64,000 nucleotides of DNA from Deltaproteobacteria bacterium (GCA_019310535.1 JAFDED010000029.1:1-64000), one strand, 5' to 3'; shown: positions 38,560 to 61,774, numbered from the stretch's first letter. The notes: generated from the sequence alone by a model not told the origin. Made by a program: numbers and translations.

Positions 38560-40167
38560 CTACCGCAGCAAGTACGGGACCTCCACATAGAGGGCCTCGG
38601 TAGGGCACACCACCTCGCAGGGGAGGCAGAACCAGCACGTCCTGTAATGTCCCACTGGAACGCCGCATGAGTAACAGCGCTCCGCCTCCCGGCGGGCGGC
38701 ATCGTCGTCAAGGGACGCCTCCAATTCGCGGAAGTCCCCCTGTGTTCCCCTGCCCACAGTGGGAATGGCCACCCGCTCCCGCTGTATTGCTCCTGATACA
38801 TCAATGGGAAAATCACGGATGTAAGGCCCTTCATAGGCCCTGCCGTATCGCAAGGGCTCACCCGAGAGCATTCGGTGGACTGAGATGGCCGCCTCCCTCC
38901 CCTGTGCCATGGCCTCCACCACTGACGACGGACCGCTGACAGCGTCGCCGGCTGCAAAGAGCCCATTTTCGGCCGTCTCCAAGGTAACTGGATCCACCGC
39001 CACGAGGCCGCCCTTGACCATGTCAGGTCCTTCCAGCAGAGGCGCACCAGCTTTCTGGCCAACGGCAATGATGACCGTGTCCGCATCAAAACGGATGGTC
39101 TGGCACTGATCAAAAGCCGGGTCGAACGCACCGTTCTCATTGAATACCCGAACACATCTCTGGAACTCAAGGCCCGCCACTTTGCCGTCCCTGGTATCGA
39201 ACCGCAGCGGTCCCCAGGAGCACTCCGCCTTAACGCCTTCGCCCAGCGCCCCGGCAAGTTCCCAGGTAAAAGCGGGCATTTCTTCACGACTCTCGAGGCA
39301 GACCATTCGGACGTCCTGCGCCCCGAGGCGGAATGCCGTCTGTGCCGCGTCGACCGCCACGTTACCGCCGCCGACCACCAGGACTTTTGATCCCACCCGA
39401 TGCGGTGTTCCCTCGCGAACGGCGCGGAGGAAGGGGAGGCCGTGATAAATCCCCTCCATATCCTCACCATCAATGCCCAGCCGGGCGGGTTCACCCGCGC
39501 CGGTGCACACCACAACAGCGTCGTGCTGGCCCTTGAGCTTATCCAGAGAAACATCCCTGCCTACTTGTGTGCCGCAGGAAAACTCCACCCCCATGCGCCG
39601 CAGCAGGTCCAACTCCTGCTTCAGCACATCGCCTGGGAGACGGAACTCCGGGATGGCCCACCGCAGCATCCCGCCCGGCTGATCATCGGCCTCGTAAACG
39701 GTTACACCGTGGCCGAAGCGGCGCAGTTCGTACGCTGTCATCATCCCTGCCGGCCCGGAGCCTATTACGGCCACTCGGCGGCCACTATCACCCGGGATAT
39801 CCGGATCGGACACCTCGGACCCATGTCGGTCGGCCAGATAGCGCTTCAGAGCCCGTATGGCCACGGGCGCACCCTCAGTGACGTTGCGGTGGCATGTATC
39901 CTCGCAGGGCTGTGAGCAAATGCGGCCAAGTATCCCAGGGAACGGAAGTGTTTCCCTCAGCACTTCCATAGCCTTGAGGCCCTCGCCATCCGCCAGCAGC
40001 TTCACGTAACCGTGGCAGTTGACCCCCAGCGGGCAGGCCTGGCGGCATGGCGATAGCTGCAGCCGGATGTTGTCCAGCACACATCGCTCCACGCAATCCC
40101 CGCAGAATATGCACTTGTCCCTGTCAATACAAATGTTGTCGCTCAGCGCTTCCAGAAGATTGGTCAT
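38560..40167 (-). CDS. GltD-like FAD/NADPH oxidoreductase with extra ferredoxin domains
   Basis: This 535-residue iron-sulfur flavoprotein belongs to the glutamate-synthase-small-subunit/PreT group. At the N-terminus Cys13, 19, 22, 25 and 29 form a ferredoxin-like motif (CIFCGDCVERC). The Fer4_20 cysteines follow (CRQACPLGVNCHG, GRICSQPCEDTC). The FAD site VAVIGSGPAGMMTAYELR lies near 131 and the NAD(P)H site VLVVGGGNVAVDAAQ near 262. A C-terminal cysteine cluster, CYSCG...CWFCLPCEVVCP, ends the protein. It is last in a minus-strand operon with an AprA-like flavoprotein and probably passes electrons between pyridine nucleotide and that partner. Confidence 0.9.
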   Translation of the reverse strand: MTNLLEALSDNICIDRDKCIFCGDCVERCVLDNIRLQLSPCRQACPLGVNCHGYVKLLADGEGLKAMEVLRETLPFPGILGRICSQPCEDTCHRNVTEGAPVAIRALKRYLADRHGSEVSDPDIPGDSGRRVAVIGSGPAGMMTAYELRRFGHGVTVYEADDQPGGMLRWAIPEFRLPGDVLKQELDLLRRMGVEFSCGTQVGRDVSLDKLKGQHDAVVVCTGAGEPARLGIDGEDMEGIYHGLPFLRAVREGTPHRVGSKVLVVGGGNVAVDAAQTAFRLGAQDVRMVCLESREEMPAFTWELAGALGEGVKAECSWGPLRFDTRDGKVAGLEFQRCVRVFNENGAFDPAFDQCQTIRFDADTVIIAVGQKAGAPLLEGPDMVKGGLVAVDPVTLETAENGLFAAGDAVSGPSSVVEAMAQGREAAISVHRMLSGEPLRYGRAYEGPYIRDFPIDVSGAIQRERVAIPTVGRGTQGDFRELEASLDDDAARREAERCYSCGVPVGHYRTCWFCLPCEVVCPTEALYVEVPYLLR

Positions 40168-40306
40168 GAGTCTTCTCCTTGTTATCTGTCATGAATGGCG
40201 CAGTAATCATACCATCCCTTGTTAATCGTAAAGTACCGAAAGCATTCGATTGCTGCCAACTTGCCACCGAATTAACAACGAGTCATCCGGGGTTAGGTCA
40301 GGGCTA

Positions 40307-41986
40307 TTACTCTGATGCTTCCGGGAGTGCCATGCGTTCCACTGCCTGGTAAGAAACTGTAACGTCCGCCGGGGTTTCTCCCTTTGTGAGTACGATGTGC
40401 TTGATCCACTCATCGCCGCCCTTCTCAGGGTAATCGGACCGGAAGTGCCAGGGCGCCCAGCGGGTCTCACGCCGCTCCAGGGAGGCAGTGGCGGCGAGTC
40501 GGGCTGAGAGAATTATATTCTCTATCTCAAAGGCCTTGAAGAGATCATGCTCGCTCTTTATGCGAACCAGACCGCTCTTCAACTCGTTCTCAAACCGATC
40601 CATCCACCACAAGGCCCTGTTAAGCTTGTATTCGTTCTTGGGAGGCGAGATATAATCGTTAATGTGACGCCTCACCTTGTACTCGAACTCCTCTATGGAG
40701 ACGGAGCCGTTGCCTTGTTCCGTCAGGGAAGAGATTCGGCCCTTGAGCGCCCGGTCAACCTGATCGGGGTCCACTGACGGTCGGCCGGCAGTGCGCGCGT
40801 AAGCGGTGGCGCTTTCGGCGGCAAATTGACCGAAAACGAACGCACCGCTCAGATGCCCCCTGGCCACCAGAGAGGTGTCGCCTGCAGCGTAAAGGCCGGG
40901 CACCGCTGTTTCCGCGCGGTCGTTTACCATGATACCCGTGAGGCCGTGCCCTCCGCACAGGTAGCATTCAGTTGGCCACAGCTCGATGTCTCCGGAACGG
41001 AAGTTGACATCCCTGCCCTTAAAAAAGCGCTCCATGACGGGCCGTTCGGTGGTGAAAAGGATCCCCTCGATCTCCGAGATCTTCTCCTCGGTCAGGTGGC
41101 TCATCCGGATACGGAGAGGCCCTCGGTTTTTCCTGTGCTGCTCCAGCATGCCCTTGATGGACACATGGGCGTCGGGCAGATCCACGTCTTGCGGGTCCAG
41201 CAGGCGGGCTCCGCGGGTCATGGTTATATACAGGAGCGGCGCATTGATGTCCTTGATGATGTAATAAACGATAGTGTACTCGAAGCCCGAGAGCTTCGCC
41301 CCGGCGCGGTAGCCCAGGCAATAGCCATCGCCGGTGTTTCCGGGGAAGTCGTACACGCCGTACAGGTAGCCGTTGTTGGGCAGGCCGAAGCGAGCCGTTC
41401 CGCCGGCCGAAAGGATCACCGCCGGGCTTCGGCAGATCAATCGCTCACCGGTGCGGATGTTGAACCCCACGGCGCCGGCGACCCGCTCGTCCTCTTTCAG
41501 GAGATCGATTGCCATGGTGCGGTTGAAAACCTTCACACCCTGTTCCATGAGGCGGCGGGCTAGAATGGCCTTGAGCTCGGGCTCCTTCATGGTCACGGCG
41601 AACCGCCCCTTGGGATGTACCTTGAGTACCTCGTAATTGCCATTGGCGTCAGTTGGGAAACACACGTCCCATTTCTCCAATAGTTTCAGTACATCCCAGC
41701 TTCGCTGTGCCATTCGATAGCTGGGAGGCTCGTCCATAACCCCCTCGCAGGACATGCGATTTGCCTCCACATATAACTCCGGCGTGGAAATGCCCGGCAC
41801 GGCCACTATGTTCAGGGCGTCCATTCCACGGGCGATGCATCCCGAGTAAAGGATATCTCCTTTCTCGAAGACCGCCACCCTCTGGCCGGGATCGAGCTCC
41901 TTGGCCCTGATGGCCGCCATGGCTCCCGCGCTGCCTCCTCCAATAATGAGTATATCCACATCGATGACGTTGGAATTAGTTTTCAT
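40307..41986 (-). CDS. AprA-like FAD-dependent oxidoreductase
   Basis: The 559-residue flavoprotein belongs to the succinate dehydrogenase/fumarate reductase/adenylylsulfate reductase alpha superfamily. It has the FAD motif ILIIGGGSAGAMAAIRAKE near 13, YSGCIARGMDALNIVAVPG in AprA style, VPGLYAAGDTSLVARGHLSG and a C-terminal helical domain. It cannot be assigned as dissimilatory AprA, because the partner AprB and sulfate-pathway genes are absent. The adjacent GltD-like protein replaces AprB as likely electron partner. Substrate is unknown; oxidation or reduction of an acyl or carboxylate compound is possible. The gene begins 56 bases after the ketopantoate-reductase-like gene ends. Confidence 0.87.
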   Translation of the reverse strand: MKTNSNVIDVDILIIGGGSAGAMAAIRAKELDPGQRVAVFEKGDILYSGCIARGMDALNIVAVPGISTPELYVEANRMSCEGVMDEPPSYRMAQRSWDVLKLLEKWDVCFPTDANGNYEVLKVHPKGRFAVTMKEPELKAILARRLMEQGVKVFNRTMAIDLLKEDERVAGAVGFNIRTGERLICRSPAVILSAGGTARFGLPNNGYLYGVYDFPGNTGDGYCLGYRAGAKLSGFEYTIVYYIIKDINAPLLYITMTRGARLLDPQDVDLPDAHVSIKGMLEQHRKNRGPLRIRMSHLTEEKISEIEGILFTTERPVMERFFKGRDVNFRSGDIELWPTECYLCGGHGLTGIMVNDRAETAVPGLYAAGDTSLVARGHLSGAFVFGQFAAESATAYARTAGRPSVDPDQVDRALKGRISSLTEQGNGSVSIEEFEYKVRRHINDYISPPKNEYKLNRALWWMDRFENELKSGLVRIKSEHDLFKAFEIENIILSARLAATASLERRETRWAPWHFRSDYPEKGGDEWIKHIVLTKGETPADVTVSYQAVERMALPEASE

Positions 41987-42041: not shown

Positions 42042-43001
42042 TCAGTGGTACGCATCGATTCCCCGCAGCAGGGTTACCGCCATTTCGGTAACGGGGACGG
42101 GGATGCCTTTCTCTCGGGCGCGCCGGACAAGATCGCCGCCCGTCTCTTCCATTTCGGTCCTCCTGCCTGCCAGAACATCCTGAAGCACGGAGTTGACAGC
42201 GCGGGTAAAACCTTTTGTCTCGAACTGCCGTCCCGCGTCCATAAGTTTCAACGCCGCCTTTTCCAGAGGAGCCTCGTAGATGGATCCGGCAAGGATGGGA
42301 GGAAAATCAGACAGATGCACGCCGCAGGCCGCAGCCACGGCCCCCGCCTCCTTGACGATGGTGGCGAAAAGCGTAGCCAGCCCCTTATGTATCAGCACCT
42401 TATAAATTTCCAGCCTGGTCAGTGCTGACAACAGCGCCGTAGAAAGCCAGAAGGCCATCTTGGACCATTCGGCCCCGGCTATGCTCTCCGGGACCTGTGC
42501 CGGAAGCCCCACCGTGTTGAATGTGGCAACTATCTCCTCGACCCGGCGGCTGCGGCAGTCATCCAGTTCGCCAAAGAAGGTGGGATTGTCCATGGTATAA
42601 CGTATCTTACCGGGTTGTTCAACGGTGGCTCCCATGCCCGTCATTGCCCCGATTACTGGCTCGCGGCCAAATTGTGCGGCAAGGTGATCGTTCTTGGCCA
42701 CCCCGTTCTGGAGCGATGCAACGCAACCGGGCCTGAGATGGCCCAGCGCTCCCAGGGCGGCGGCCGTGTCCCGTGCTTTGACTGCTATCAGCAGGAAGTC
42801 CGCTTCCTTGACGACCGAGGGATCGGTAATCGCTCTGACCCTGGCCCGTGCCTGGGCGACCCCGAAGACCTCCAATCCGTTGGCCTCAATGACCCGCACG
42901 TGCGATTCACGCCCTATAAGGGTTACGTCCTCGCCGCTGCGGGCCAGGAAGGCTCCCACCACGCCTCCCACCGCCCCGGCTCCCATAATGACAATTTTCA
43001 T
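42042..43001 (-). CDS. Ketopantoate reductase family protein
   Basis: This 319-residue protein has the ApbA/PanE two-domain layout: an N-terminal Rossmann fold with IVIMGAGAVGGVVGAFLARSG, and a helical C-terminal domain with FTRAVNSVLQDVLAGRRTEM. That second motif (K or R plus N, S, D, E) matches the family active site. In this operon context it more probably reduces a 2-oxo or 3-oxo acid of the catabolic route than ketopantoate itself. The gene sits between a flavin reductase and an AprA-like flavoprotein. Confidence 0.88.
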   Translation of the reverse strand: MKIVIMGAGAVGGVVGAFLARSGEDVTLIGRESHVRVIEANGLEVFGVAQARARVRAITDPSVVKEADFLLIAVKARDTAAALGALGHLRPGCVASLQNGVAKNDHLAAQFGREPVIGAMTGMGATVEQPGKIRYTMDNPTFFGELDDCRSRRVEEIVATFNTVGLPAQVPESIAGAEWSKMAFWLSTALLSALTRLEIYKVLIHKGLATLFATIVKEAGAVAAACGVHLSDFPPILAGSIYEAPLEKAALKLMDAGRQFETKGFTRAVNSVLQDVLAGRRTEMEETGGDLVRRAREKGIPVPVTEMAVTLLRGIDAYH

Positions 43002-43072: not shown

Positions 43073-43585
43073 TCAATCCTCCCAGTATGCCGCCAGGATT
43101 TCACCGAAATATATCGTATGGTAATCCCCTTTTGGGTAGCAGTCGTCATGCAGGGCCGGATCCAATAGGGAACGGGCCATGTGTGTCCGGTATACGACTC
43201 GGCATTCATAATGGCCTACACACTGCCCGATTATGGGTACCTGGACCTTACGGCCCGGGACGGCGGTGAAGTCATGCGCGGCGAATTTGTCCACATCGCG
43301 TCCTGAGCGGACCCCACAGTCCGCCACCGCAGCCTTAAGGCCTTGGGGCGGCACGTTGACGGTGAATTCTCCGGAATTCTCCAACAATTGGTGGGTGTAA
43401 CGGCTGACCCTCACCAGTATCGTAAAAATAGGGCGTCTCCATATGATGCCCGGGCTTCCCCACCCGATGGTCATGGCGTTGGGCTTGCCTTTAGGGTCCA
43501 CAGCCACCAACAAGAGCCCCATCCGCTTCATTGTCTCAAGTGTTTCAACGGATCTGCTGTTATACTCTATGTCTACCTTGCCCAT
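43073..43585 (-). CDS. Flavin reductase-like (flavoredoxin) protein
   Basis: The 170-residue protein has the FMN-binding split-barrel layout of flavin reductase-like proteins: VAVDPKGKPNAMTIGWGSP near 28 and a FTVNVPPQGLKAAVADCG motif. Flavoredoxins of sulfate reducers belong to this group. A GGAGGAGA ribosome binding site lies just before the ATG. It is the first gene of the four-gene minus-strand operon and may supply reduced flavin to, or exchange electrons with, the AprA-like protein. Confidence 0.87.
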   Translation of the reverse strand: MGKVDIEYNSRSVETLETMKRMGLLLVAVDPKGKPNAMTIGWGSPGIIWRRPIFTILVRVSRYTHQLLENSGEFTVNVPPQGLKAAVADCGVRSGRDVDKFAAHDFTAVPGRKVQVPIIGQCVGHYECRVVYRTHMARSLLDPALHDDCYPKGDYHTIYFGEILAAYWED

Positions 43586-44284: not shown

Positions 44285-45198
44285 ATGGAAAAAGGAAAAG
44301 TTATACTTGCAGTTGTATGCTCCATGTTCATCGCATGGGGGATCTCTCATACAAGGCTGGCGGCAGCACGGACGTGGCGGCCCGGACCATGGGGCCTTTT
44401 CTGGAGAAGTATCTTGGACAGCCCATTGTGGTTCTGAACTTACCCGGAGCCGGTGGTCAGGTGGGATGGACCAAGCTGGCCAGGAGCAAGCCGGATGGCT
44501 ACACCATCGGCTTTATCAACATGCCGGCGCTAAACATGGTATATTCAGCCCGGGAAGGGGTCCTTTACCATCCGGTCAAGAGCTGGGACCCCATCGGGTG
44601 CAACATCATCGATCCCAACACGGTCATGGTGCGCATCGATGATGATCGCTTCAAGATCATTCAGGACCTCATCGAATACGCGCGCAAGAACCCGGGCAAG
44701 GTGATTTGCGGGGCTGACGGCCCGCTGTCCGACGACCAGTTGGCAATGGTCAAGATACAAAAGGCGACCGGTGTCAAGTTCTCTTACGTGGCCTATAATG
44801 GGGCGGCCCCGGCCCACGCCGCGTTGCTTGGCAAGCATTCGGATTTTATCATTACCAACACCCAGGATACTATCATTTACAAGGACAAGGAAAGGTGCTT
44901 AGTCCAGTTATGGAAAGAAAGGTATCACATGAACCCGAATACTCCGACCTTTAAAGAGGTTTTCGGGAAAGAGCTTATCGGCTCATCCACCCGCGGCATC
45001 GTGGCGCCGGCCGGAGTACCGGCAGATCGACTGAAAATTTTACGGGATGCCTTCAAAAAAGCAGCTCATAACCCGGAATATAAGGAGAGGGCCAAGAAGG
45101 TCGGCCTGACGCTGGCCTGGATGGATGCCGAGGAATTCGGGCAATTTATGAAGAATCTTCAGGCGGATGTGGATGCCCTGATCAACGAGCTCAAATAA
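44285..45198 (+). pseudogene. tctC: tctC homologue broken by a 49-base deletion
   Basis: From the ATG at 44285, with GGGGG upstream, the first codons read MEKGKVILAVVCSMFIAWGI, nearly the same as the intact tctC at 46630. The sequence between TGGGGGATC and GGCAGCACGG is 17 bases here (44345-44361) but 66 bases in the intact copy (46690-46755). The net loss of 49 bases shifts the frame and removes the signal-peptide end and the start of the mature protein. The rest (AGGSTDVAARTM onward) stays open in another frame to 45198 and is very similar to the intact copy. An in-frame ATG at 44317 would give a protein without a signal peptide, so periplasmic function is unlikely. Confidence 0.85.
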
Positions 45199-45240
45199 AA
45201 GGCCGATGCCGGCCGGGCATGCGATCGCCCGGTCGGCCTT
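45199..45240 (+). other. Stem-loop after the tctC pseudogene
   Basis: AAGGCCGA/TCGGCCTT outer arms and CCGGGC/GCCCGG inner arms form a strong two-part hairpin right after the stop. There is no T-run, so it is more likely a 3'-end stabiliser or attenuator than a full terminator. A related hairpin follows the intact copy. Confidence 0.6.
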
Positions 45241-45293
45241 AGCCTACCCTCGCAATTCATTAAAGAGGTGCGAAAGCTGAGGGGAAATTATTC

Positions 45294-46379
45294 ATGACAA
45301 AAGGAAAAGCTGTGGCTGCAATTTTGGAAGCACCTCACACGTTTACGATCAGGGAATTTGAAGTTCCAAAAGTCGGAGAAAACGATGTCCTATTACAGGT
45401 TGAGATGTGTACGATATGTGGCTCCGACCCGCCCGTGTATAAAGGGCTTCATCCCGATGTGCAATATCCTGTCATCATGGGGCATGAATTGATTGGACGT
45501 ATTGTGGATATTGGTTCCAGGGCTAAGGACCGGTATCAACTGAAAGAAGGAGACAGGGTTGTTCCCGGCGGAACGGACGGATGTGGAACTTGCAGGGTTT
45601 GCCTGGAAGGAAATGCCCGCCTCTGCGAGGCAAGAAAACGATCTCCCGGCCGTCCGTGCGCGGAGTATCCCCATTTATTCGGCGGGTTCGCAGAGTATAT
45701 CTACATTCGGGGGGGAACACATTTGCACAGGGTCGATGAGGACGTCCCATCCGAAGCGGGCTGTCTTGGAAACAATGTGGGCAACGGGATATACTATACT
45801 CAATTCAGGGGCGGGGTAAAAAAAGGCCATGCCGTGGTGATAATTGGAGTCGGAGGCCAAGGATTGGGCAGCGTCATTGGGGCCAAAGACGTCGGCGCCC
45901 ATCCGATCATCGCCACAGGCTTGAGCGGAGATCGGATCCGTTTTGATTTGGCTGAAAAACTGGGAGCGGATTATACGATCAACAGTGAAGAAGAGGATCC
46001 AGTCGAAAAAGTGATGACCTATACGAATGGAGAATTGGCCGACGTTGTAGTAGAGACATCCGGACATCCCCTTGCTTTTCAACATGCGCTGAGTTACGCC
46101 CGTCCTGCAGGGACAGTGACTCAGGTGGGATTGAACTGGACAAACATACCCATCGAATCACATTTTATGAGTAAATTGGTGCAAAAAGAGCTGAATATTT
46201 ATGGCGCCCTGGGACCGCGAAGACCCGCTATGGAACAGGGGATCCGGATAATAAACTCGAAAAAATTTCCCATCGAAGATTTCATCACCCACAAATTCTG
46301 CCTTGCAAACCTCCATGAAGCCTTTGATCTGTTCGATGAAAGGAAACGAGAATGTATAAAGATTGGGATTATACCGTAA
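45294..46379 (+). CDS. Zinc-dependent alcohol dehydrogenase (MDR family)
   Basis: This 361-residue medium-chain dehydrogenase has a catalytic-zinc region with MCTICGSDPPVYKG near 38 and GHELIGRI. A structural-zinc cluster reads GCGTCRVCLEGNARLC. A Rossmann domain with VIIGVGGQGLGSVIGA follows near 185. The product would oxidise or reduce an alcohol or aldehyde with NAD(P). It occupies the place after the broken tctC where tctB and tctA stand after the intact one. A GGGG site precedes the ATG. Substrate cannot be assigned. Confidence 0.9.
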   Translation: MTKGKAVAAILEAPHTFTIREFEVPKVGENDVLLQVEMCTICGSDPPVYKGLHPDVQYPVIMGHELIGRIVDIGSRAKDRYQLKEGDRVVPGGTDGCGTCRVCLEGNARLCEARKRSPGRPCAEYPHLFGGFAEYIYIRGGTHLHRVDEDVPSEAGCLGNNVGNGIYYTQFRGGVKKGHAVVIIGVGGQGLGSVIGAKDVGAHPIIATGLSGDRIRFDLAEKLGADYTINSEEEDPVEKVMTYTNGELADVVVETSGHPLAFQHALSYARPAGTVTQVGLNWTNIPIESHFMSKLVQKELNIYGALGPRRPAMEQGIRIINSKKFPIEDFITHKFCLANLHEAFDLFDERKRECIKIGIIP

Positions 46380-46411
46380 AATAAACAAAAAAACCGATCG
46401 TCACAATTTAC

Positions 46412-46441
46412 TTGACTTATTCAACCTGCTATGTTCTTAAT
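46412..46441 (+). promoter_or_regulatory. Putative promoter of the tctCBA operon 1
   Basis: TTGACT at 46412-46417 and CTTAAT at 46436-46441 are 18 bases apart. The flanking bases match those at 43971, so the promoter was duplicated along with the gene. Confidence 0.5.
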
Positions 46442-46629
46442 TATTCAGCCAAATTTCTATCCTCCTGCTCAGATTTTATGGGGCATGAAAAAGCGATATT
46501 GAATGAAAAATATGGAAGTGATCAATACCGGATCCTTTTCAGGCATTTTTGGATGGAGGGTGATAGGGAAAAAACCTTATAATGCAAACCGTGCTTCACC
46601 AGTTATTTTTTTATTAAAGGAGGGTTATC

Positions 46630-47592
46630 ATGAAAAAGGGAAAGATTATACTTGCAATTGTATGTTCACTGTTCATGGCATGGGGAATCCTGTCGTCGCC
46701 GGCATCGGCTTTTCCGGACAAGCCGATTACCATGACCGTCTCCTTCAGTGCCGGAGGCAGCACGGACGTGGCGGCGAGGACCATCGCCGTTTATATGGAG
46801 AAGTACCTCGGGCAGCCCGTGGTCATCAAGAATCTTCCCGGAGCCAGCGGCCAGGTCGGATGGACAAAACTGTCCCGGAGCAAACCGGATGGCTACACCA
46901 TAGGCTTTGTCAATTTGCCGGCTTTAAACATGGTATACGCGCTCCGGGAAGGGGTGGCCTATCATCCTGTCAAGAGCTTTGTCCCCATCGGGTGCAACAT
47001 CATCGATCCCAACACGGTGTTGGTGCGCATTGATGACGACCGCTTCAAAACCATCAAGGACCTCATCGAATACGCGCGCAAAAATCCGGGCAAGGTGATA
47101 TGCTCGCTTGATGGCCCGGTGTCCGACGACAGGTTGGCCCTGGTCAAGATGGAAAAAGCGACCGGAGTCAAATTTTCTGCTGTTTTCTACCATGGATCGG
47201 CTCCCGCTAATGCCGCACTCATGGGCGGGCACGGCGATTTTACCATCACCAATACCTTCGATGTGATCAAGTACAAAGACAAGGAGCGATGCCTGGTTCA
47301 GATGTGGAAAGAACGATATCACATGAATCCCGACACCCCGACATTTAAAGAGGTATTCGGTAAAGATATCATCGGGGCCTCCACCCGAGGGATGGCAGCT
47401 CCTGCCGGGGTGCCGGCGGATAGGCTCAAGATACTGCGTGATGCCTTCGAGAAAGCGGCAAATGATCCTGAATTCAAAGAGAGAGCCAACAAAATCGGGC
47501 TGACCCTGGCATGGCTGAGTGCCGATGAATTCGGTACATTTATAAAAAATCTCCAGAATGACGTGGATACGTTAATTGACGAGCTCAAATAG
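46630..47592 (+). CDS. tctC: Tripartite tricarboxylate transporter substrate-binding protein (TctC)
   Basis: TctC binds a carboxylate in the periplasm and delivers it to TctAB. The 320-residue protein has a signal peptide ending ASA-FP near 26 and the family opening PDKPITMTVSFSAGGSTD. Downstream phrases include SKPDGYTIGFVNLPA and VPADRLKILRDAFEKA. An AAAGGAGGG ribosome binding site precedes the ATG. It is followed by a hairpin, then tctB and tctA. It is closely similar to the damaged copy upstream. The ligand is unknown. Confidence 0.94.
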   Translation: MKKGKIILAIVCSLFMAWGILSSPASAFPDKPITMTVSFSAGGSTDVAARTIAVYMEKYLGQPVVIKNLPGASGQVGWTKLSRSKPDGYTIGFVNLPALNMVYALREGVAYHPVKSFVPIGCNIIDPNTVLVRIDDDRFKTIKDLIEYARKNPGKVICSLDGPVSDDRLALVKMEKATGVKFSAVFYHGSAPANAALMGGHGDFTITNTFDVIKYKDKERCLVQMWKERYHMNPDTPTFKEVFGKDIIGASTRGMAAPAGVPADRLKILRDAFEKAANDPEFKERANKIGLTLAWLSADEFGTFIKNLQNDVDTLIDELK

Positions 47593-53838: not shown

Positions 53839-53857
53839 AGAAATCAAGGAGGAGAAA

Positions 53858-54865
53858 ATGGAGGGTAAACGAATCATTTCAGGCAAGAAGTTGTATTGTT
53901 CTGCCATTTTGGGGATTATTGCACTGCTGGCAACGCCATTATTTTGTTTTGGGGCGGGATATCCCGAAAAACCCATCACGCTGGTGGCTCCCTATGGACC
54001 GGGAGGGGCTTCCGATTTGGCCTCCCGGACTCTGGCAACCGTGGCGCATAACTATATTGGACAGCCTGTCCTGGTCGTCAACAAGACAGGGGCCAGTGGG
54101 GCAGTGGGGTCAGCCTATGTCAAACAATCCAAGCCGGACGGCTATACGTTGTTGCTGGCGAGGGTTGGATGCAACGCTGTCGCCCCGGCGATTCAGGCCA
54201 ATTTGCCGTACAAATGGGATGACTTCACAATGCTGGGGCTCCTGGAGTTGAATCCTTTCGTCTTCGTGGTTCATGCCGATTCTCCAATCAAGAGTTTGAA
54301 AGATCTGGTGAATACTTTAAAGAGCAAACCCGGAACATTATCCTACAGCACCTCGGGGCCTGGAACCATCCTGGATTTTGGCCCCAAAATACTTTTCCAG
54401 AGGATTGGGCTGGGTAAGGACGCAGGCACCATGATCCCTTACAGGGGAGGAGGAGGAGCTGCTGCTGCGCTTGTTGGCAAACATGTGAATTTTCTGGGCA
54501 TCAACCTTGCGCCCGTGCTGAGCCATATACTTGGCGGAAGACTGAGAGCCCTGGCTGTTACTACCAAGGAGCGCTTTCGCGACATCCCCGATGTTCCTAC
54601 GGTCAGGGAGTTAGGATATCCTGAGTTGGAAGTCGTTATTGGATGGAGCGGACTTTTCGGACCTCCTAATATGGACAAAGCAGTCATTGACAAGTGGGTA
54701 AAGGCTCTTCAGGGAGTTGAAAAGGACAAGAGCTGGAATACCCTTACCAAGAAGTTGGGATCCATTCCATATATCATTCCTCCAGCGGAGACCAAAGCCT
54801 TTGTGGGCAAACAATATAATATGTTCCATGACCTGGCGGTGAAGCTGGATCTTGTGGTCAAATAA
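53858..54865 (+). CDS. tctC: TctC substrate-binding protein 2
   Basis: This 335-residue binding protein has a signal peptide (cleavage near FGA-GYPEKP, residue 30). The family phrases PITLVAPYGPGGASDLASR and SKPDGYTLLLARVGC are present. It is clearly diverged from the copies at 44-47 kb, so it probably binds a different ligand. AAGGAGGAG precedes the ATG. It follows the glycohydrolase-like gene by 19 bases. Confidence 0.94.
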   Translation: MEGKRIISGKKLYCSAILGIIALLATPLFCFGAGYPEKPITLVAPYGPGGASDLASRTLATVAHNYIGQPVLVVNKTGASGAVGSAYVKQSKPDGYTLLLARVGCNAVAPAIQANLPYKWDDFTMLGLLELNPFVFVVHADSPIKSLKDLVNTLKSKPGTLSYSTSGPGTILDFGPKILFQRIGLGKDAGTMIPYRGGGGAAAALVGKHVNFLGINLAPVLSHILGGRLRALAVTTKERFRDIPDVPTVRELGYPELEVVIGWSGLFGPPNMDKAVIDKWVKALQGVEKDKSWNTLTKKLGSIPYIIPPAETKAFVGKQYNMFHDLAVKLDLVVK

Positions 54866-54875
54866 ATAGGATTTT

Positions 54876-54907
54876 AAGGCAGGGGGGGTCGGGGCTCCCC
54901 CTGCCTT
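54876..54907 (+). other. Stem-loop between tctC2 and tctB2
   Basis: A perfect 11-base-pair stem (AAGGCAGGGGG / CCCCCTGCCTT) encloses a ten-base loop, right after the binding-protein gene. There is no T-run, so partial termination or mRNA protection is likely. Confidence 0.65.
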
Positions 54908-54923
54908 ACAGGAAAGCTCGAAA

Positions 54924-55448
54924 ATGCGATGGTCACTGAAAGATCTGGGATTGGCCGGTGGGTTGATCCTGTTTTTTTTGTTCACGCTCTTTTTTCTGAT
55001 CCCAAAGGGGGTCTACGTCCCCGCCAACATAAATATTAGGGTCATGTCGCCTGATTTCTTTCCGAGGGCGGTGGCTATTTTTGTCATCCTGATGAGCTTG
55101 ATCTTGGCTCTCCAAAATATCCTTGTATCAGGGTCGAAAAAGAGATATCCCGATCAGAATGTGGAAAGGAAATTGCCTCAAGAAGGCAAAGACAATGATA
55201 AAATCCGCAAATTGAAAATTATTAAGATTTGCGTGGCCATCTTTTTGCTCTTTATGTATTTTCAGGCCGTGTCATTAATCGGAATTCTCCCTTCATCGGC
55301 CATCTTTCTACTTGCTTTTTCATTTCTTTATGGAGAGAGACGGTTCAAGATCATTATACCCCTGGCTGTGTTCCTGCCCATTATCCTGTATTTTTTCTTC
55401 ACACGACTCGCTAACATCCCTTTGCCGAAAGGAATCTTCTTTGAGTGA
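54924..55448 (+). CDS. tctB: TctB family small membrane subunit 2
   Basis: The 174-residue protein has four predicted helices, the first at about 12-28. The TctB loop MSPDFFPRAVAIFVILMSL follows it, and the end reads ANIPLPKGIFFE. A longer charged loop (about 70-100) separates the helix pairs. It lies between tctC2 and tctA2 and completes a second transporter. Confidence 0.87.
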   Translation: MRWSLKDLGLAGGLILFFLFTLFFLIPKGVYVPANINIRVMSPDFFPRAVAIFVILMSLILALQNILVSGSKKRYPDQNVERKLPQEGKDNDKIRKLKIIKICVAIFLLFMYFQAVSLIGILPSSAIFLLAFSFLYGERRFKIIIPLAVFLPIILYFFFTRLANIPLPKGIFFE

Positions 55449-55482
55449 TTAAAGAAACTGCGAAATCCGACGAGGTTTGTTT

Positions 55483-56976
55483 ATGATCGATAATTTTCTT
55501 CTGGGAATTCAGATGTTCGGCCACTTCAAGAACTTCGTGGCCATCTTCGCAGGCGTTGGTGTGGGAATCATCACCGGGGCGATACCAGGGATGACGGGCA
55601 CCATGGGTGTTGCACTGGCCCTTCCCTTTACTTTTTACATGGACCCCATCACCGGCATTCTTTTTTTAGTGGGGTTGTATAAGGGTGCCATTTACGGCGG
55701 ATCCATCACAGCCATTTTGATCAAAACCCCGGGAACTCCGGCAGCGGCATGTACCGTTCTGGATGGCTACCCCATGGCTCAACAAGGAAAGGCGGGCAAA
55801 GCCCTCAATATGGCTCTTTATGCCTCGGTTTTTGCTGATTTTGTCTCCAACATGTCGCTTATCATCTTCGCCGCCCCCATCGCCGCCTTTGCGCTCCGGT
55901 TCGGCCCACCGGAATTTTTTACCCTGATTTCATTTTCCCTGACTATCATTGCCGGGGTGTCCGGCAAATCCATCACCAAGGGCCTTATTGCGGGCGGGAT
56001 GGGGTTGATGGCAGCCACCATCGGGATGGACCTGGTCTACGGATCATCGCGCTTTTCCTTTGGAAGCGTGGAACTTCTGGGCGGTCTGAATTTCATACCC
56101 GTCCTGATAGGACTTTTCGCAATTCCCGAATTAATCAAAGAGTATGGAGAGACATATACCTCTTCTTTCAGAACATCCTCTATGGGGGACAGAAGTATCT
56201 CATTCCGCGAGTTGAAAAGGTGCTTCAAGAGCATAGTCCGCGGCAGCCTGATAGGCGTTGTCATCGGCGCCATCCCGGGCATAGGCGGAGCGCCTTCGGC
56301 CTTTTTGAGTTACAACGAGGCCAAGAGGAATTCCAAACACCCGGAAACCTTTGGGCAGGGGGAAATTGAAGGAGTGGCAGCCTCCGAAGCGGGCAATAAC
56401 GGTGTTTGCGGAGCCACCATGATTCCGCTTCTCACTCTGGGTGTTCCAGGTGATGTGATTACTGCCATCCTCCTTGGGGCTTTCATGGTACACGATCTCA
56501 GGCCGGGGCCCCTCCTGTTCCAGAAAAATATCGACATCATCTATGGCATATTTGTGGGCATCATGCTGAGCTCCGTGGCCATGCTGCTTCTGGGGAAACT
56601 GGGAATCAGGTTGTTCGCCCGTATTGCCAACGTTCCCAATTCTATCCTGTTTCCGGCGGTTCTTGTCCTCTGTGTCTATGGAACCTATGCTGTGGACAAC
56701 AAGATGTTTGATGTCCTGGTGATGATCATCATGGGACTGGTCGGATATTTTATGCTCCTCTTCGAGCTTCCTCCGGCACCCTTTCTGATAGCTTTTATAC
56801 TGGGCCCCATGTTCGAAGATAACCTTCGCAGATCTTTGCTTCTATCTCACGGGGATCCTTCCATACTCTTTCGCAGTTTCATCTGCTGGATTTTTTGGGG
56901 ATTGACTCTGCTTTCCATTATTTTAATTGTACGGCGAAATCTAAAGGCAAAAACACTCCAAACGAGGGATCGTTAA
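55483..56976 (+). CDS. tctA: TctA family permease 2
   Basis: This 497-residue permease has about twelve helices and the signatures GAIPGMTGTMGVALALP near 34 and IKTPGTPAAACTVLDGYPM near 82, repeated in the second half as GAIPGIGGAPSAFLSYNEA. The ATG at 55483 (MIDNFLLG) has GAGG upstream; a TTG six bases earlier is less likely. It ends the second transporter operon. Confidence 0.94.
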   Translation: MIDNFLLGIQMFGHFKNFVAIFAGVGVGIITGAIPGMTGTMGVALALPFTFYMDPITGILFLVGLYKGAIYGGSITAILIKTPGTPAAACTVLDGYPMAQQGKAGKALNMALYASVFADFVSNMSLIIFAAPIAAFALRFGPPEFFTLISFSLTIIAGVSGKSITKGLIAGGMGLMAATIGMDLVYGSSRFSFGSVELLGGLNFIPVLIGLFAIPELIKEYGETYTSSFRTSSMGDRSISFRELKRCFKSIVRGSLIGVVIGAIPGIGGAPSAFLSYNEAKRNSKHPETFGQGEIEGVAASEAGNNGVCGATMIPLLTLGVPGDVITAILLGAFMVHDLRPGPLLFQKNIDIIYGIFVGIMLSSVAMLLLGKLGIRLFARIANVPNSILFPAVLVLCVYGTYAVDNKMFDVLVMIIMGLVGYFMLLFELPPAPFLIAFILGPMFEDNLRRSLLLSHGDPSILFRSFICWIFWGLTLLSIILIVRRNLKAKTLQTRDR

Positions 56977-57152
56977 TTTGTCCGAATTGGTTAATAGGGT
57001 ATTTTATGTGTTTTCATAAAACGTATCCCCATAAAATCAACCAGGAATTCCTCAGGACCATCCAAACAGCTTGACATAACGATCAGGTTTTTGATACACA
57101 AAAGTTGCCCTTTGGGCGTTGTATGATAGAGTATGTCCATGGAGGTTTACCT

Positions 57153-58343
57153 ATGCCGCTGCCGTTGACAGGAGTTCGCGTGATCGAGCTTTCCCAGGTG
57201 CTGGCAGGCCCATTTGCCGGCCAGCTTCTCGGGGACCTTGGGGCCGAGGTCATCAAGTTGGAACAGCCCGGTCAGGGGGACAATGCTAGACAAATGCCGC
57301 CCTATTTTATCGGCGGTTTGAGTGCATATTACCTGGGCCTGAACCGCAACAAAAAGAGCCTGCCTCTGAATCTTAAAGCACCCGAAGGGAAAACTATCTT
57401 CATGGAGTTGGTGAAAAAGGCGGACGTTGTTTTTGATAATTTCCGTCCCGGTGTGAGGGAGCGTCTGGGCATCGACTACGAGAGCATCAAAAAGGTCAAC
57501 CCGCGGATTATCTCATGCTCCATCTCCGGGTTCGGCCAGACGGGTCCCTACCGCAATCGCCCCGCACTGGATCTTATCATCCAGGCCATGGGCGGCGCCA
57601 TGAGCTTCACCGGTGAGGTGGGCGGAGAGCCGGTTCGCATGGGACTGCCCATGGGAGACCTCGGAGGGGCGCTCTTTGCGGTCCATGGAATACTGTCGGC
57701 GTTGTATTACCGGGAACGAACGGGAGAAGGCCAGAATATAGACATCTCCATGCTGGACTGCCAATTGGCCCTCATGACCTACCGTCTCCAGTACTATTTC
57801 ATCGGGGGGGAGGTTCCCGCGCCCATAGGATCAGGCCATGCCTCCGCCGTGCCCATCAGGGCATACCGCTGCAAAGACAAGTATATAGTCATCGATGCTG
57901 TGGTGGAGCGGATCTGGGAGTCTTTGTGCCGGGCACTTGGACACCCTGAGCTAATCTCAGACCCCCGCTTCGAGGGCCGCCATAAACGGCTCCAGAACCG
58001 CGATGAGCTGGATGGCATTCTTGAGCAAATATTTGCCACACGCACCCGGGACGAATGGATGGAGATTTTCGTACGGGAAGGGGTGGCCGGAGGCCCGATT
58101 TATACCCTGGATGAGGTGGTGAAGGATCCTCAGACTCAGCATCGCCAAATGGTGGTGGACATGGATCACCCGGTGGCCGGCCCCCTCAAGGCCACGGGCA
58201 ATCCTATCAAAATGTCCGCAGTTGAGAAATATCGATATGATCACCAACCCACTCTTGGGGAGCACAGCGAGGAGATATTGAAAGATCTTCTGGGCTACGC
58301 ACCCGAGGAAGTGGCCAGGTTACGCGAAAACGGCGTCATATAA
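57153..58343 (+). CDS. Family III CoA-transferase (CaiB/BaiF)
   Basis: This 396-residue enzyme would move CoA between two carboxylates, activating the substrate for degradation. The N-terminal VRVIELSQVLAGPFAGQLLG, GAEVIKLEQPG and LNRNKKSLPLNLK are classic. The catalytic aspartate lies in GLPMGDLGGALFAVHG near 170. GGAGG eight bases upstream supports the ATG at 57153 (MPLPLTGV); an in-frame TTG at 57105 would add an unlikely extension. It heads the next plus-strand group and fits a role in activating the acid imported by the Tct systems. Confidence 0.93.
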   Translation: MPLPLTGVRVIELSQVLAGPFAGQLLGDLGAEVIKLEQPGQGDNARQMPPYFIGGLSAYYLGLNRNKKSLPLNLKAPEGKTIFMELVKKADVVFDNFRPGVRERLGIDYESIKKVNPRIISCSISGFGQTGPYRNRPALDLIIQAMGGAMSFTGEVGGEPVRMGLPMGDLGGALFAVHGILSALYYRERTGEGQNIDISMLDCQLALMTYRLQYYFIGGEVPAPIGSGHASAVPIRAYRCKDKYIVIDAVVERIWESLCRALGHPELISDPRFEGRHKRLQNRDELDGILEQIFATRTRDEWMEIFVREGVAGGPIYTLDEVVKDPQTQHRQMVVDMDHPVAGPLKATGNPIKMSAVEKYRYDHQPTLGEHSEEILKDLLGYAPEEVARLRENGVI

Positions 58344-58486
58344 TGTAAACCAGGGATCCTCCCTTGTGCTGCCCCGCCCGCCAATAACGAAGATGAGTTT
58401 CCCATACCGATTGTCGGAGGCGTTTCCGGAGACCATTGATAAATTAAGCCCTTTCGCTCTCCAAAGGGCTGACCAGGAGGTGTTCA

Positions 58487-59368
58487 ATGCAGGCCGAAGC
58501 CGTATTGGTACCCAATGAGTCCAAAAAACTCATAGCCAAAGCCGTTCTGGACATGGATGAAGTGAAAAAAGCCCTGGACGATGGCATCATGGTGATGCAC
58601 CCCAGCAGCACCACGATCTTCATGTACGAGTCTATTCTGGGCCGACTACCCGATGAAGGACAGGTATGGGTATGCGGCGTCACCTTGCCCAGAGGGTTGT
58701 GTGGCTCAAGGGAGACCCTGCGGGGAATGGCTGCTCACGGAGACGGCTTCCGTGATCCCCTGGATTTCAAGCACGCGTGGATCTTTCGAAAAGGCCAACT
58801 CCAGGAGAGTATGCGCCTGGGGGATATCGTGGATCAGATGTCCTCCGATGACGTTTATGTTAAAGGACCTAATGCCCTGGATCCCCAGGGAAACGTGGGC
58901 GTTCTCTTTGCAAACCCCGCTGGTGGCGGAGGAACCATAGGCCGCGTGATAGTTGCACAGCGCAAACGGGGATTCCATCTGCTGCTGCCCATCGGCCTGG
59001 AAAAGCTCATTCCGGTATCCATTCAGGCCGCCTCCAAAAAGGCGGGGTTTAAGAACGTGGACAGAGCCATGGGAATGCCCTGTGGTCTGATCCCGGTGCC
59101 GGGACGAAAGATCGATGAAGTTGATGCCATCCGTATGATCAGCGGCGCTGAGGCCACCCCGATTGCCGCTGGCGGCCTGGGAGGAGCCGAGGGAGCGGTT
59201 GTACTGGCCATACACGGCACTGAGGAGCAGGTCAACCGGGCCATGGAAGCGATGGAAAGCGTCAAAGGGGCACCACTCCCCTCACTGGACCTGTGGCAGT
59301 GCGATACCTGCCCGGGCCCTACGTGCCACCTTCGAGGCCGTAACGACTTGCCGTGGCTGAGGGGCTGA
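58487..59368 (+). CDS. Unknown protein with C-terminal cysteine cluster
   Basis: I do not recognise a family for this 293-residue protein. It has no signal peptide or membrane helix. The central part is glycine-rich (KGPNALDPQGNVGVLFANP and AGGGGTIGRV). The C-terminal half contains GAEATPIAAGGLGGAEGAV and a final CDTCPGPTCHLRG cluster that could hold a metal. It starts with AGGAGG at good distance. It stands between a CoA-transferase gene and a dihydroorotate-dehydrogenase-like fragment followed by an MmgE/PrpD gene, all on one strand, so it probably belongs to the same pathway. Confidence 0.7.
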   Translation: MQAEAVLVPNESKKLIAKAVLDMDEVKKALDDGIMVMHPSSTTIFMYESILGRLPDEGQVWVCGVTLPRGLCGSRETLRGMAAHGDGFRDPLDFKHAWIFRKGQLQESMRLGDIVDQMSSDDVYVKGPNALDPQGNVGVLFANPAGGGGTIGRVIVAQRKRGFHLLLPIGLEKLIPVSIQAASKKAGFKNVDRAMGMPCGLIPVPGRKIDEVDAIRMISGAEATPIAAGGLGGAEGAVVLAIHGTEEQVNRAMEAMESVKGAPLPSLDLWQCDTCPGPTCHLRGRNDLPWLRG

Positions 59369-59381
59369 CCTGCCGAGGCGA

Positions 59382-59576
59382 TTGAAGCAAGTGGATTTGA
59401 GCGTAAACATAACGGGCGTTACCTTTCCCGGCCCGGTGTTGCCGGCTTCCGGCCCGTGGAGCAGAACAGCTCGGTCCACGGCGGTTGCAGCCCGAGCGGG
59501 GGCCGGCGGGATCGTTACCAAAACCATCACCCTGGAATGGCGCCAGGATTTCCCGCATCCCCGGAAGGAGGAATAG
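59382..59576 (+). pseudogene. N-terminal fragment of a dihydroorotate-dehydrogenase-like protein
   Basis: The 64 codons read like the first strand-loop of PreA/PyrD-type flavoproteins: DLSVNITGVTFPGPVLPASG and AGAGGIVTKTIT are characteristic. The frame then stops and the MmgE/PrpD gene begins four bases later. The remaining 230 or so residues of the barrel, including the FMN and catalytic sites, are missing, so the gene has been cut by a deletion. A TTG at 59382 is the likely old start. Confidence 0.7.
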
Positions 59577-59580
59577 AGCC

Positions 59581-60918
59581 ATGAACCCTACCGAGAAACT
59601 GGCCGCATTTGTGGCTGAAACCACCGCGGACAAGGTGCCGAGGGAAGTTTTCGAGAGGAGTAAATGGCCCGTTCTGGACGGCCTGGCTGTCACACTCGCG
59701 GGGCACAACCACGAGGTTGGACGGGCAATTGTATCCTTCGTCCGAGAGTTGGGCGGCAATCCGGTAGCCACTGTCCTGGCTGACGGGTTTCGGACCTCCG
59801 CCCCCATGGCTGCCTATGCCAATGGCACATTGTCTCATGCTCTGGACTATGATGACGTTAACGTCAACATCGGCGGCCACCCCACTGTGCCGGTGCTCTC
59901 GGCCATCCTGGCTGTGGGCGAGATGGTGAAAGCAACCGGGCAGGAGTTTCTCCTCGCTTATATCCTGGGTGTCGAGGCTGAGACAAAGCTGGGACGTGCT
60001 ATCATCAAGGTCTTTTACAATCTCGGATGGCACCCCACCTCCACGCTCGGGACCCTGGGCGCCGCCGCTGCGTGCAGCAAACTTCTGGGGCTGGACGCTG
60101 AAAAAACGTTGATGGCGCTGGGCATAGCCGGATCGGCTGCCAGCGGGCTTAAGCAGAACTTCGGGACAATGACCAAACCCCTGCATCTGGGCCAGTCCGC
60201 TAAAAACGGCGTGCTGGCCGCCATGCTTGCCCAGCGGGGATGGACTGCAGACCGGCGGATTCTGGAGGGACACTTCGGCTTCTGTAACCTCTTCTGCGGG
60301 CGCGACCAATACGACCTGCGGGAGATGACCGAATATCTCGGAAATCCATGGGAAATCCTGGATCCAGGCATATCCCTGAAAAAGTACCCTTGCTGCGGCA
60401 GCATCCATTCCTCTCTGGACGCCATGTTCGAACTCCTTAAGGAAACGCCCCTGAGGGCGGATCAAGTGAAGAAAGTTGAGTGCCAGGTGGACCCCACCAA
60501 AGACCATACGCTTGTCCATCCGCGTCCCTGCACCGGACTGGAAGGGAAGTTTAGCCTTGAGTATTGCCTGGCCGCCTCCATTCTGGACGGCAAAGTCGGC
60601 CTGGCTCAGTTTGAGGATGAGAAGATCCGGGATCCGCGCGTCCAGGATCTCCTGCCACGGATCGTTGCATCCAAGGATGAAAAAGTGGCAAACTGGGGAA
60701 GCCGGGTTCGCATAGAGACCACCGACGGCCGGGTGTTGTTCCGTGAGAACGGTCCATCTTCCGGCATTACGCTCTGGGACGATCTTGCCGCCAAGTACCG
60801 CGATTGCGCCGTCCCCGTCCTGGGCCCACACGGGGCAGAGCGTGCTCTGGGCATGGTTCAAGGCTTAGAGGAAATGTCGAATATTTCAGAGTTGGTGCAA
60901 ATGCTGGTTCGCTCATAA
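59581..60918 (+). CDS. MmgE/PrpD family protein
   Basis: The 445-residue protein has the MmgE/PrpD layout: a helical N-terminal domain with GTLSHALDYDDVN near 80 and GGHPTVPVLSAILAVGE, and the smaller C-terminal domain with SLKKYPCCGSIHSSLDAM. Members include 2-methylcitrate dehydratase, iminodisuccinate epimerase and cis-aconitate decarboxylase, so a hydration, dehydration or decarboxylation of a polycarboxylate is likely. GGAGGAATAG precedes the ATG at 59581. An in-frame upstream extension to 59485 overlaps the dehydrogenase fragment and is not used. Confidence 0.9.
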   Translation: MNPTEKLAAFVAETTADKVPREVFERSKWPVLDGLAVTLAGHNHEVGRAIVSFVRELGGNPVATVLADGFRTSAPMAAYANGTLSHALDYDDVNVNIGGHPTVPVLSAILAVGEMVKATGQEFLLAYILGVEAETKLGRAIIKVFYNLGWHPTSTLGTLGAAAACSKLLGLDAEKTLMALGIAGSAASGLKQNFGTMTKPLHLGQSAKNGVLAAMLAQRGWTADRRILEGHFGFCNLFCGRDQYDLREMTEYLGNPWEILDPGISLKKYPCCGSIHSSLDAMFELLKETPLRADQVKKVECQVDPTKDHTLVHPRPCTGLEGKFSLEYCLAASILDGKVGLAQFEDEKIRDPRVQDLLPRIVASKDEKVANWGSRVRIETTDGRVLFRENGPSSGITLWDDLAAKYRDCAVPVLGPHGAERALGMVQGLEEMSNISELVQMLVRS

Positions 60919-61087
60919 GAACAATCACACCTTTCCGGGAACAGAAAAACATGAAAAATTTATTGAGCTTTGAAATATAGATATATTGTTTATTGATTTG
61001 ATAACAAAATGAACAAAATTTTCGCACCCTATTTTATCCTGTTATCCAGTTCTAAATTACTTTTCATAAATGTGAAAGGAGTGTAAG

Positions 61088-61774
61088 ATGAAAATTACAT
61101 ATTACGGGCATGCCTGTTTCGGGCTGGAGGACGGAAAATCCAGCATCCTGATTGATCCATGGCTCAAGGGGAATCCACTGGTTAAACATGTTCCCGAGGG
61201 CTTGCGGCCGGATTTGATCCTTGTGAGTCATGGACACCACGACCACCTCGGAGACGCCGTAGAAATTGCTAAAGAGAGCGGTGCTACCATTATCTCCACC
61301 CCTGAAGTATGTCATTATTGCGCCAAACAGGATGCTAAGATTGACCCCGTGCATTACGGAGGCACATTGAAATTCGACTTCGCAGCCGTATCAGTAGTAC
61401 CGGCCTGGCATTCGTCTTCCATTACCATTGGCGAAGAACGTATTTACGCGGGAAACCCCTGCGGCTTCGTCATCCGGTTCGGCGAAAAAGTGATTTACCA
61501 CGCGGGCGACACATGCCTTTACGGCGACATGTCGCTCATAGCGGAGCGATTTGTGCTGGACTATGCCCTGCTGCCCATCGGGGATCGGTTCACCATGGGG
61601 CCGGAGGATGGCCTGAGGGCTGTCCGGTTGCTTCGCCCCAGGGTTGTGATTCCCATGCACTATGATACGTGGGACCGCATTGTGCAGGACGTGGAGGCTT
61701 TCCGAAAAGTGGTGGAGGCTCGGACTATTTCGAAATGCCTGGTGATGAAGCCCGGGACTATCCACCAGGATTAA
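61088..61774 (+). CDS. Metallo-beta-lactamase-fold hydrolase (UPF0173-like)
   Basis: The 228-residue protein is a predicted metal-dependent hydrolase of the UPF0173 group. It has SHGHHDHLGDAVEIA near 51 (HxHxDH), GGTLKFDFAAVSVVPAWHSS, HAGDTCLYGDM and the final IPMHYDTW. All expected metal ligands appear present. AAAGGAG precedes the ATG. Its substrate is unknown; it is the last gene of the catabolic stretch. Confidence 0.88.
   Translation: MKITYYGHACFGLEDGKSSILIDPWLKGNPLVKHVPEGLRPDLILVSHGHHDHLGDAVEIAKESGATIISTPEVCHYCAKQDAKIDPVHYGGTLKFDFAAVSVVPAWHSSSITIGEERIYAGNPCGFVIRFGEKVIYHAGDTCLYGDMSLIAERFVLDYALLPIGDRFTMGPEDGLRAVRLLRPRVVIPMHYDTWDRIVQDVEAFRKVVEARTISKCLVMKPGTIHQD

Follow-up and report, generated by a model that had tools for sequence, protein, structure and literature searches.

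The interval from 38560 to 61774 of the window (the whole 64,000-nucleotide stretch analysed) is best read as a modular island and not as one pathway: its right-hand part, block C, would be an operon that takes up a dicarboxylate, epimerises it and activates it with CoA, and blocks A and B would be separate units. We hold this reading with moderate confidence. The substrate class of block C is most likely a 2-substituted succinate such as methylsuccinate, as judged from the gene families and active-site residues described below.

The window consists of bases 1-64000 of contig C16 (64,186 bp), from an assembly of 4.8 Mb in 191 contigs that is 95% complete, with 5.9% contamination. Gene classes were called by Pfam gathering scores and equivalogs were judged by NCBIfam cut-offs, while transcription units were deduced from strand and spacing alone, on a fragmented assembly. 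Promoter and terminator scans gave a yield barely above that of shuffled sequence and were left unused. The following families pass the Pfam cut-off in the interval: TctA (twice), TctB (twice), TctC (three times), CoA_transf_3, MmgE_PrpD N and C, NAD_binding_2/11, ADH_N/ADH_zinc_N, ApbA/ApbA_C, FAD_binding_2/Succ_DH_flav_C, Fer4_20/Pyr_redox_2, Cupin_2, PCC and ADP_ribosyl_GH. Each gene class listed by the first-pass annotation is thus present, with two refinements. Its two Tct transporters do correspond to two TctABC sets, but TctC genes number three, the first being a broken tandem copy; and its "glycohydrolase-like" protein is more exactly an ADP-ribosylglycohydrolase homologue. It had also missed a 293-aa protein at 58487-59368, hereafter UNK, together with genes for a flavin reductase (43073-43585) and a UPF0173 hydrolase (61088-61774).

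We describe the interval as a TTT-rich chromosomal island of at least four separate strand units: block A (minus), block B (plus), a cupin/PPC pair (minus) and block C (plus). The pair lies between blocks B and C, on the other strand from both:

50828-51325, minus strand, PPC (PCC/DUF296) domain protein (Pfam PCC)
51534-51926, minus strand, small cupin (Pfam Cupin_2)

A split transposase, with DDE_3 and HTH halves, is found at the left edge of the region. The left flank holds type II secretion and glycan genes, and the right flank an inositol-1-phosphate synthase gene.

Block C and its relatives

Block C runs on the plus strand from 52642 to 60918, in the order ADP-ribosylglycohydrolase homologue, TctCBA3, CaiB CoA-transferase, UNK and MmgE/PrpD, with the UPF0173 hydrolase gene downstream:

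52642-53838, plus strand, ADP-ribosylglycohydrolase-family protein (Pfam ADP_ribosyl_GH), 19 bp before TctC3
53858-54865, plus strand, TctC3, solute-binding protein (Pfam TctC; PDB 25hk and BugD)
54924-55448, plus strand, TctB (Pfam TctB)
55477-56976, plus strand, TctA (Pfam TctA)
57105-58343, plus strand, family III (CaiB) CoA-transferase (Pfam CoA_transf_3; NCBIfam below cut-offs), likely start near 57153
58487-59368, plus strand, unclassified protein UNK, 293 aa, with no Pfam, NCBIfam or PDB sequence match
59485-60918, plus strand, MmgE/PrpD protein, epimerase type by its iminodisuccinate (IDS) epimerase residues, likely start near 59581
61088-61774, plus strand, UPF0173 metallo-beta-lactamase-fold hydrolase (NF001911 above cut-off), 169 bp downstream of MmgE/PrpD

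The CoA-transferase, with a candidate catalytic Asp185 (ORF numbering), lies near MmgE/PrpD, UNK being in between. Carboxylate import by a TTT system and CoA activation, as proposed in the first-pass annotation, are both supported by family content and synteny for this right-hand block. A homologue of the ADP-ribosylglycohydrolase was found in no other genome among 390 at E 1e-20, and one partial plasmid match was recovered.

The combination of TTT, CaiB and MmgE/PrpD recurs in four relatives (L036, L076, L077 and L079). Each of them adds a methylmalonyl-CoA-mutase-family (B12) large subunit, and several also carry a carboxyltransferase, a B12-binding protein, an epimerase or an acyl-CoA dehydrogenase; in the literature we found no description of such a TTT-CaiB-MmgE-mutase set. 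The L036 counterparts of the window genes are 69% (CaiB), 65% (UNK) and 63% (UPF0173 hydrolase) identical, and the UPF0173 hydrolase is possibly linked to block C. The mutases of L036 and L076 keep the Tyr and the Arg by which methylmalonyl-CoA mutase binds the substrate carboxylate, and are without the Ile and Gln of 2-hydroxyisobutyryl-CoA mutase. The retained pair points to a dicarboxylyl-CoA substrate, in parallel to IaaL-IaaGH-IaaF. No gene for a large or small B12 mutase subunit lies within 38560-61774; the genome does carry such genes on other contigs, and its methylmalonyl-CoA-mutase-family large subunits number five, one of them on contig 47 by an MmgE/PrpD and a B12-binding gene. This grouping of mutase, B12-binding protein and MmgE/PrpD, with no TTT alongside, is seen both in L074 and on that contig.

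UNK members occur in 44 of the 395 phylum genomes searched. Pfam searches with 19 members at relaxed thresholds returned chance-level matches only (e.g., DeoR-C at 0.039 in three), and there was no match in NCBIfam, PDB sequences or plasmids (PLSDB). AlphaFold (AF2) models of two different members, the window protein and one other, have pLDDT values of 90 and 88 respectively, and the Foldseek lists of both consist mostly of NagB/RpiA/CoA-transferase (ISOCOT) folds, none with E below 2e-3 or TM above 0.40. The matches include eIF2B, ribose phosphate isomerases, and the IpdAB, AtoDA and CtfAB CoA-transferases. From these models UNK is predicted to adopt a divergent ISOCOT-like fold: its likeness to the superfamily is that two independent models draw mostly members of it, at the E and TM values just given, whereas UNK has no LUD or CoA_trans profile match and no Pfam family. 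UNK as a LUD (LutC-like) protein or as a family I CoA-transferase was considered and rejected, hhalign giving below 1% probability to LUD and CoA_trans. A family I CoA-transferase pair adjoins UNK in one genus. Glu11, Lys18, Lys126, Asn129, Asp132, Lys173 and Glu211 are among the invariant or nearly invariant residues. Our guess is that UNK has a role in CoA-ester or acid turnover.

Block C might instead be a loose collection, in which the ADP-ribosylglycohydrolase, UNK and the UPF0173 hydrolase are bystanders and the working unit is TTT, CaiB and PrpD only, or none. UNK neighbourhoods do vary widely in the phylum, with PrpD near UNK in few of about 60 places, and the uniqueness of the ADP-ribosylglycohydrolase among the 390 genomes is in keeping with a bystander. 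We nevertheless find such a collection unlikely: three of the four members of the closest UNK subfamily lie within 10 kb of an MmgE/PrpD gene (a rough estimate puts the chance of this at about 6e-4), and L036 holds CaiB, UNK and UPF0173 together, at the 63-69% identity given above.

The MmgE/PrpD protein and the substrate of block C

The first-pass annotation had expected a hydration or dehydration step from the MmgE/PrpD enzyme. The protein is predicted, from its residues, to catalyse epimerisation of a C4-backbone dicarboxylate and not hydration, because the epimerase residue set is complete and the NCBIfam prpD models for 2-methylcitrate dehydratase stay far below cut-off (20.7 versus 458, 26 versus 575 and 31 versus 950 bits). 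Its closest PDB match is IDS epimerase (2hp0, E 1e-67), and the match to cis-aconitate decarboxylase is weaker (3e-41). Seven catalytic or binding residues, including a His99/Tyr145 two-base pair, have been proposed for IDS epimerase (PMC12290011). The window protein keeps all seven (H85, D88, H99, Y145, H150, K198 and K266 of 2HP0), and the second base, Tyr145, is Ile in the aligned cis-aconitate decarboxylase. In these seven residues, two-base pair included, it is the same as IDS epimerase (2HP0/2HP3), from which it differs in its setting among TTT and CoA-transferase genes; this setting suggests a substituted succinate other than IDS as substrate. Plasmid relatives of the protein are all under 41% identity. 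In L036, L076, L077 and L079 the MmgE/PrpD proteins carry Leu or Phe in place of Tyr145, and the reaction is accordingly not uniform across the module.

These comparisons make it quite improbable that block C serves citrate/aconitate or itaconate, with MmgE/PrpD as a cis-aconitate decarboxylase or 2-methylcitrate dehydratase and the CoA-transferase activating itaconate. Cis-aconitate decarboxylases are indeed among the PDB matches, and itaconate CoA-transferases activate both itaconate and methylsuccinate (PMC12290011), but the closer match to IDS epimerase, the Tyr that the decarboxylase does not have and the low PrpD scores all speak against it, as does the finding that neither ich nor ccl (itaconyl-CoA hydratase and citramalyl-CoA lyase) lies within 38560-61774.

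The statement that no described pathway has this composition is true when the whole list of genes is taken, yet block C comes near the methylsuccinate/itaconate cluster. A 2025 study described, in Cupriavidus necator and Pseudomonas aeruginosa, a methylsuccinate isomerase of the MmgE/PrpD family whose gene adjoins that of a CoA-transferase (PMC12290011). The two share the CoA-transferase and MmgE/PrpD genes, the MmgE/PrpD catalytic core and C4-backbone dicarboxylate chemistry, whereas block C adds the TTT genes, UNK and the ADP-ribosylglycohydrolase homologue, and the region is without the dehydrogenase, hydratase and lyase; for the first of these, neither an (RS)-methylsuccinyl-CoA dehydrogenase nor another acyl-CoA dehydrogenase was found among the genes of 38560-61774. 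We also compared the window protein with the methylsuccinate isomerase set His88/Glu91/His102/Tyr148/His152/Lys202/Lys266, through the published residue positions (PMC12290011). Equivalents are present for all except Glu91, where Asp stands, and the substrate may therefore differ from methylsuccinate. A second described system with points in common is indoleacetate degradation in Aromatoleum, in which a CoA-transferase, a B12 mutase and an acyl-CoA dehydrogenase act on phenylsuccinyl-CoA (PMC8360864). Block C and iaaL-iaaGH-iaaF have in common a CoA-transferase for a substituted succinate, and the relatives of block C also share the B12 mutase and acyl-CoA dehydrogenase; the window region, in contrast, is without mutase and dehydrogenase, and has MmgE/PrpD and TTT in addition.

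Alongside the families, gene order, conserved residues and recurrence of the module set out above, we infer the following substrate and direction for block C. TctABC3 would import a dicarboxylate built on a C4 (succinate-type) backbone, MmgE/PrpD would use two bases to invert its stereocentre at C2, and the CaiB-type CoA-transferase would form the CoA ester, the likely donor being succinyl-CoA. The ester might then be processed onward by enzymes coded elsewhere, e.g., one of the five methylmalonyl-CoA-mutase-family subunits, or by UNK. A bolder proposal, possible but doubtful in our view, is that UNK is the first member of an enzyme family not yet described, of divergent CoA-transferase/isomerase fold, and that it also works, with TTT, the epimerase-type MmgE/PrpD and CaiB, in an undescribed 2-substituted-succinate route, which in relatives would proceed via a B12 mutase acting on a dicarboxylyl-CoA, along with either a carboxyltransferase or an acyl-CoA dehydrogenase.

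Blocks A and B

Block A extends on the minus strand from 43585 to 38560, in the order flavin reductase, PanE-like, AprA-like and GltD-like:

38560-40167, minus strand, GltD/DsrL-family Fe-S flavoprotein, predicted NAD(P)H:acceptor oxidoreductase (Pfam Fer4_20, N-terminal, and Pyr_redox_2; extra Fe-S motifs)
40307-41986, minus strand, AprA-like/fumarate-reductase-family flavoprotein (Pfam FAD_binding_2 and Succ_DH_flav_C)
42042-43001, minus strand, PanE-like protein of the ketopantoate reductase family (Pfam ApbA, ApbA_C; TIGR00745 subfamily above cut-off)
43073-43585, minus strand, flavin reductase-like protein (Pfam Flavin_Reduct)

Our reading of block A is that of a portable NAD(P)H-linked flavoprotein redox pair, independent and found in different operons in different genomes. 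The flavin-dependent redox function foreseen for the region holds up to this extent, in that both the gene families and the synteny support a flavin/Fe-S pair. Proteins homologous to the AprA-like one (54-68% identity) occur in a minority of the phylum genomes, and the GltD-like gene adjoins the AprA-like gene in all 12 loci examined. The third partners vary by locus and can be TctA/TctC, a HIBADH-family gene or GntR-UTRA regulators; in L063 they are an aminotransferase, a TPP enzyme and an aldehyde dehydrogenase. At the other loci no homologue of PanE or of the flavin reductase was detected beside the pair.

The AprA-like protein has PAPS reductase alpha (8a8o) as its best PDB match. It carries Ile where A. 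fulgidus AprA has Arg265, the catalytic residue of APS reductase; because this Arg is lost, APS/PAPS reductase identity was dropped, and TIGR02061 gives 114 bits versus 641.75. A sulfoacetaldehyde/taurine role, prompted by the L063 neighbours, was likewise rejected, as NCBIfam gives Xsc no support. The GltD-like protein is under every NCBIfam equivalog cut-off listed (TIGR01317/01318, 225 and 224 bits versus 448 and 483), and its gene neighbours the AprA-like gene and no glutamate synthase large subunit. Closest to it in function is DsrL, which acts as an NAD(P)H:acceptor oxidoreductase (PMC7596348): the GltD-like protein has, as does the DsrL/GltD family, Fe-S and FAD/NAD(P)H domains and the place of electron partner of another redox enzyme, but here the partner is the AprA-like flavoprotein, and DsrAB is not adjacent.

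Block B (plus strand, 44285-50731) is a second TTT system plus two dehydrogenases, in the order broken TctC1, Zn-dehydrogenase, TctCBA2 and beta-hydroxyacid dehydrogenase:

44285-45198, plus strand, TctC1, broken tandem copy of TctC2 (DNA alignment)
45294-46379, plus strand, Zn-dependent medium-chain dehydrogenase (Pfam ADH_N, ADH_zinc_N)
46630-47592, plus strand, TctC2, solute-binding protein (Pfam TctC; PDB BugD 2f5x, E 7e-36)
47683-48156, plus strand, TctB (Pfam TctB)
48178-49716, plus strand, TctA (Pfam TctA)
49835-50731, plus strand, beta-hydroxyacid dehydrogenase of the tartronate semialdehyde reductase/HIBADH family (Pfam NAD_binding_2/11)

TctC1 and TctC2 are 73% identical at the DNA level, over a copied stretch that takes in about 150 bp of leader. 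Near 44345 TctC1 has lost 49 bp, and with the resulting frameshift the end of the signal peptide and the first strand are gone; the deletion may be an assembly error. The differences between the two copies by codon position (55/25/119) indicate that TctC1 was under purifying selection until recently, and that its loss is recent. The best NCBIfam model for the Zn-dehydrogenase is threonine dehydrogenase, at 176 bits versus a cut-off of 458, and the beta-hydroxyacid dehydrogenase is under all the equivalog cut-offs. Orthologue searches reached at best 41% identity for the former (ADH) and 44% for the latter (HIBADH), which leaves the function of block B without comparative support.

The two complete TTT sets (TctA, TctB and TctC together, all above the Pfam cut-off) are at 46630-49716 and 53858-56976, and the sequence matches of TctC2 and TctC3 are to Bug-type receptors only. 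The host genome has 23 TctC genes, and two independent TTT systems lie no more than 7.3 kb apart in about 51% of random placements (contig ends ignored). Since so many TctC genes make chance pairs common, the proximity of the two transporters is weak evidence for joint function. The least probable reading is that of the first-pass annotation, a single integrated 23-kb pathway that takes one branched or polycarboxylate through CoA activation, hydration and redox steps by means of the two transporters, the dehydrogenases and the flavoprotein pair: all the genes do lie inside 23 kb, and blocks A and B do diverge from a common intergenic region of 0.7 kb, but there are at least four strand blocks, neither a regulator nor a hydratase was found within 38560-61774, and comparative neighbourhood analysis, one of the checks suggested with that claim, found the full set in no relative examined, with blocks A and C conserved apart and with different partners. 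Because conserved synteny splits the interval in this way, the one-pathway reading was dropped as unsupported. Nor does any gene of the interval prove the anaerobic operation that the first-pass annotation proposed.

Biological meaning

If the modular reading with a block C for substituted succinates is true, the strategy of pairing an MmgE/PrpD epimerase with a CoA-transferase for methyl- and alkylsuccinates extends to TTT-rich uncultured bacteria of the phylum. It would also suggest a B12-mutase variant of the substituted-succinate route, of which we found no description in the literature searched. UNK, a widespread unnamed protein family, is a concrete target for characterisation. Substituted succinates arise from hydrocarbon, auxin and itaconate metabolism, and their uptake and recycling would therefore matter for carbon flow in groundwater and sediment.

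Left part of the window

Type II secretion/type IV pilus genes occupy the left end, and G+C drops to 42-45% at 20-24 kb.

6-13852, set of type II secretion/type IV pilus genes, with products resembling GspE, GspF, GspK, PilM/PilN and secretins
21916-33387, low-G+C stretch, then polysaccharide and other genes
34453-35175, protein with DUF434 and DUF5616, both domains of unknown function

The low-G+C part of the second interval contains an N6/N4 DNA methylase-like ORF, after which lie one asparagine-synthase-like and one radical SAM gene along with genes for polysaccharides; this interval is possibly a horizontally acquired glycan island. The DUF434/DUF5616 protein lies close to a band-7/zinc-ribbon protein.

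Left edge of the TTT-rich island and a glycohydrolase homologue

37392-38427, minus strand, transposase split in two halves
37392-37880, minus strand, DDE_3 half
37948-38427, minus strand, HTH half
52642-53838, ADP-ribosylglycohydrolase-family protein, immediately 5' of the solute-binding protein gene TctC3

The split transposase is probably an inactivated insertion element bordering the island on the left. A close homologue of the ADP-ribosylglycohydrolase-family protein was absent from the 390 phylum genomes searched; its one plasmid match was partial.

Loci in relatives of the same phylum

L037 (G221:C110), 5140-8455, two MmgE/PrpD ORFs (301 and 337 aa)
L036 (G149:C443), 1-16431, compact cluster: tripartite tricarboxylate transporter (TTT), B12-binding protein, glyoxalase-type epimerase, carboxyltransferase, family III CoA-transferase (CaiB), B12-dependent mutase, MmgE/PrpD, acyl-CoA dehydrogenase, UNK (293 aa in the window, without Pfam or NCBIfam match) and DctP

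The L037 ORFs, between which lies an isocitrate/isopropylmalate dehydrogenase gene, look like truncated genes. The L036 cluster is a candidate for a complete substituted-succinate pathway, and a better one than the window's own.
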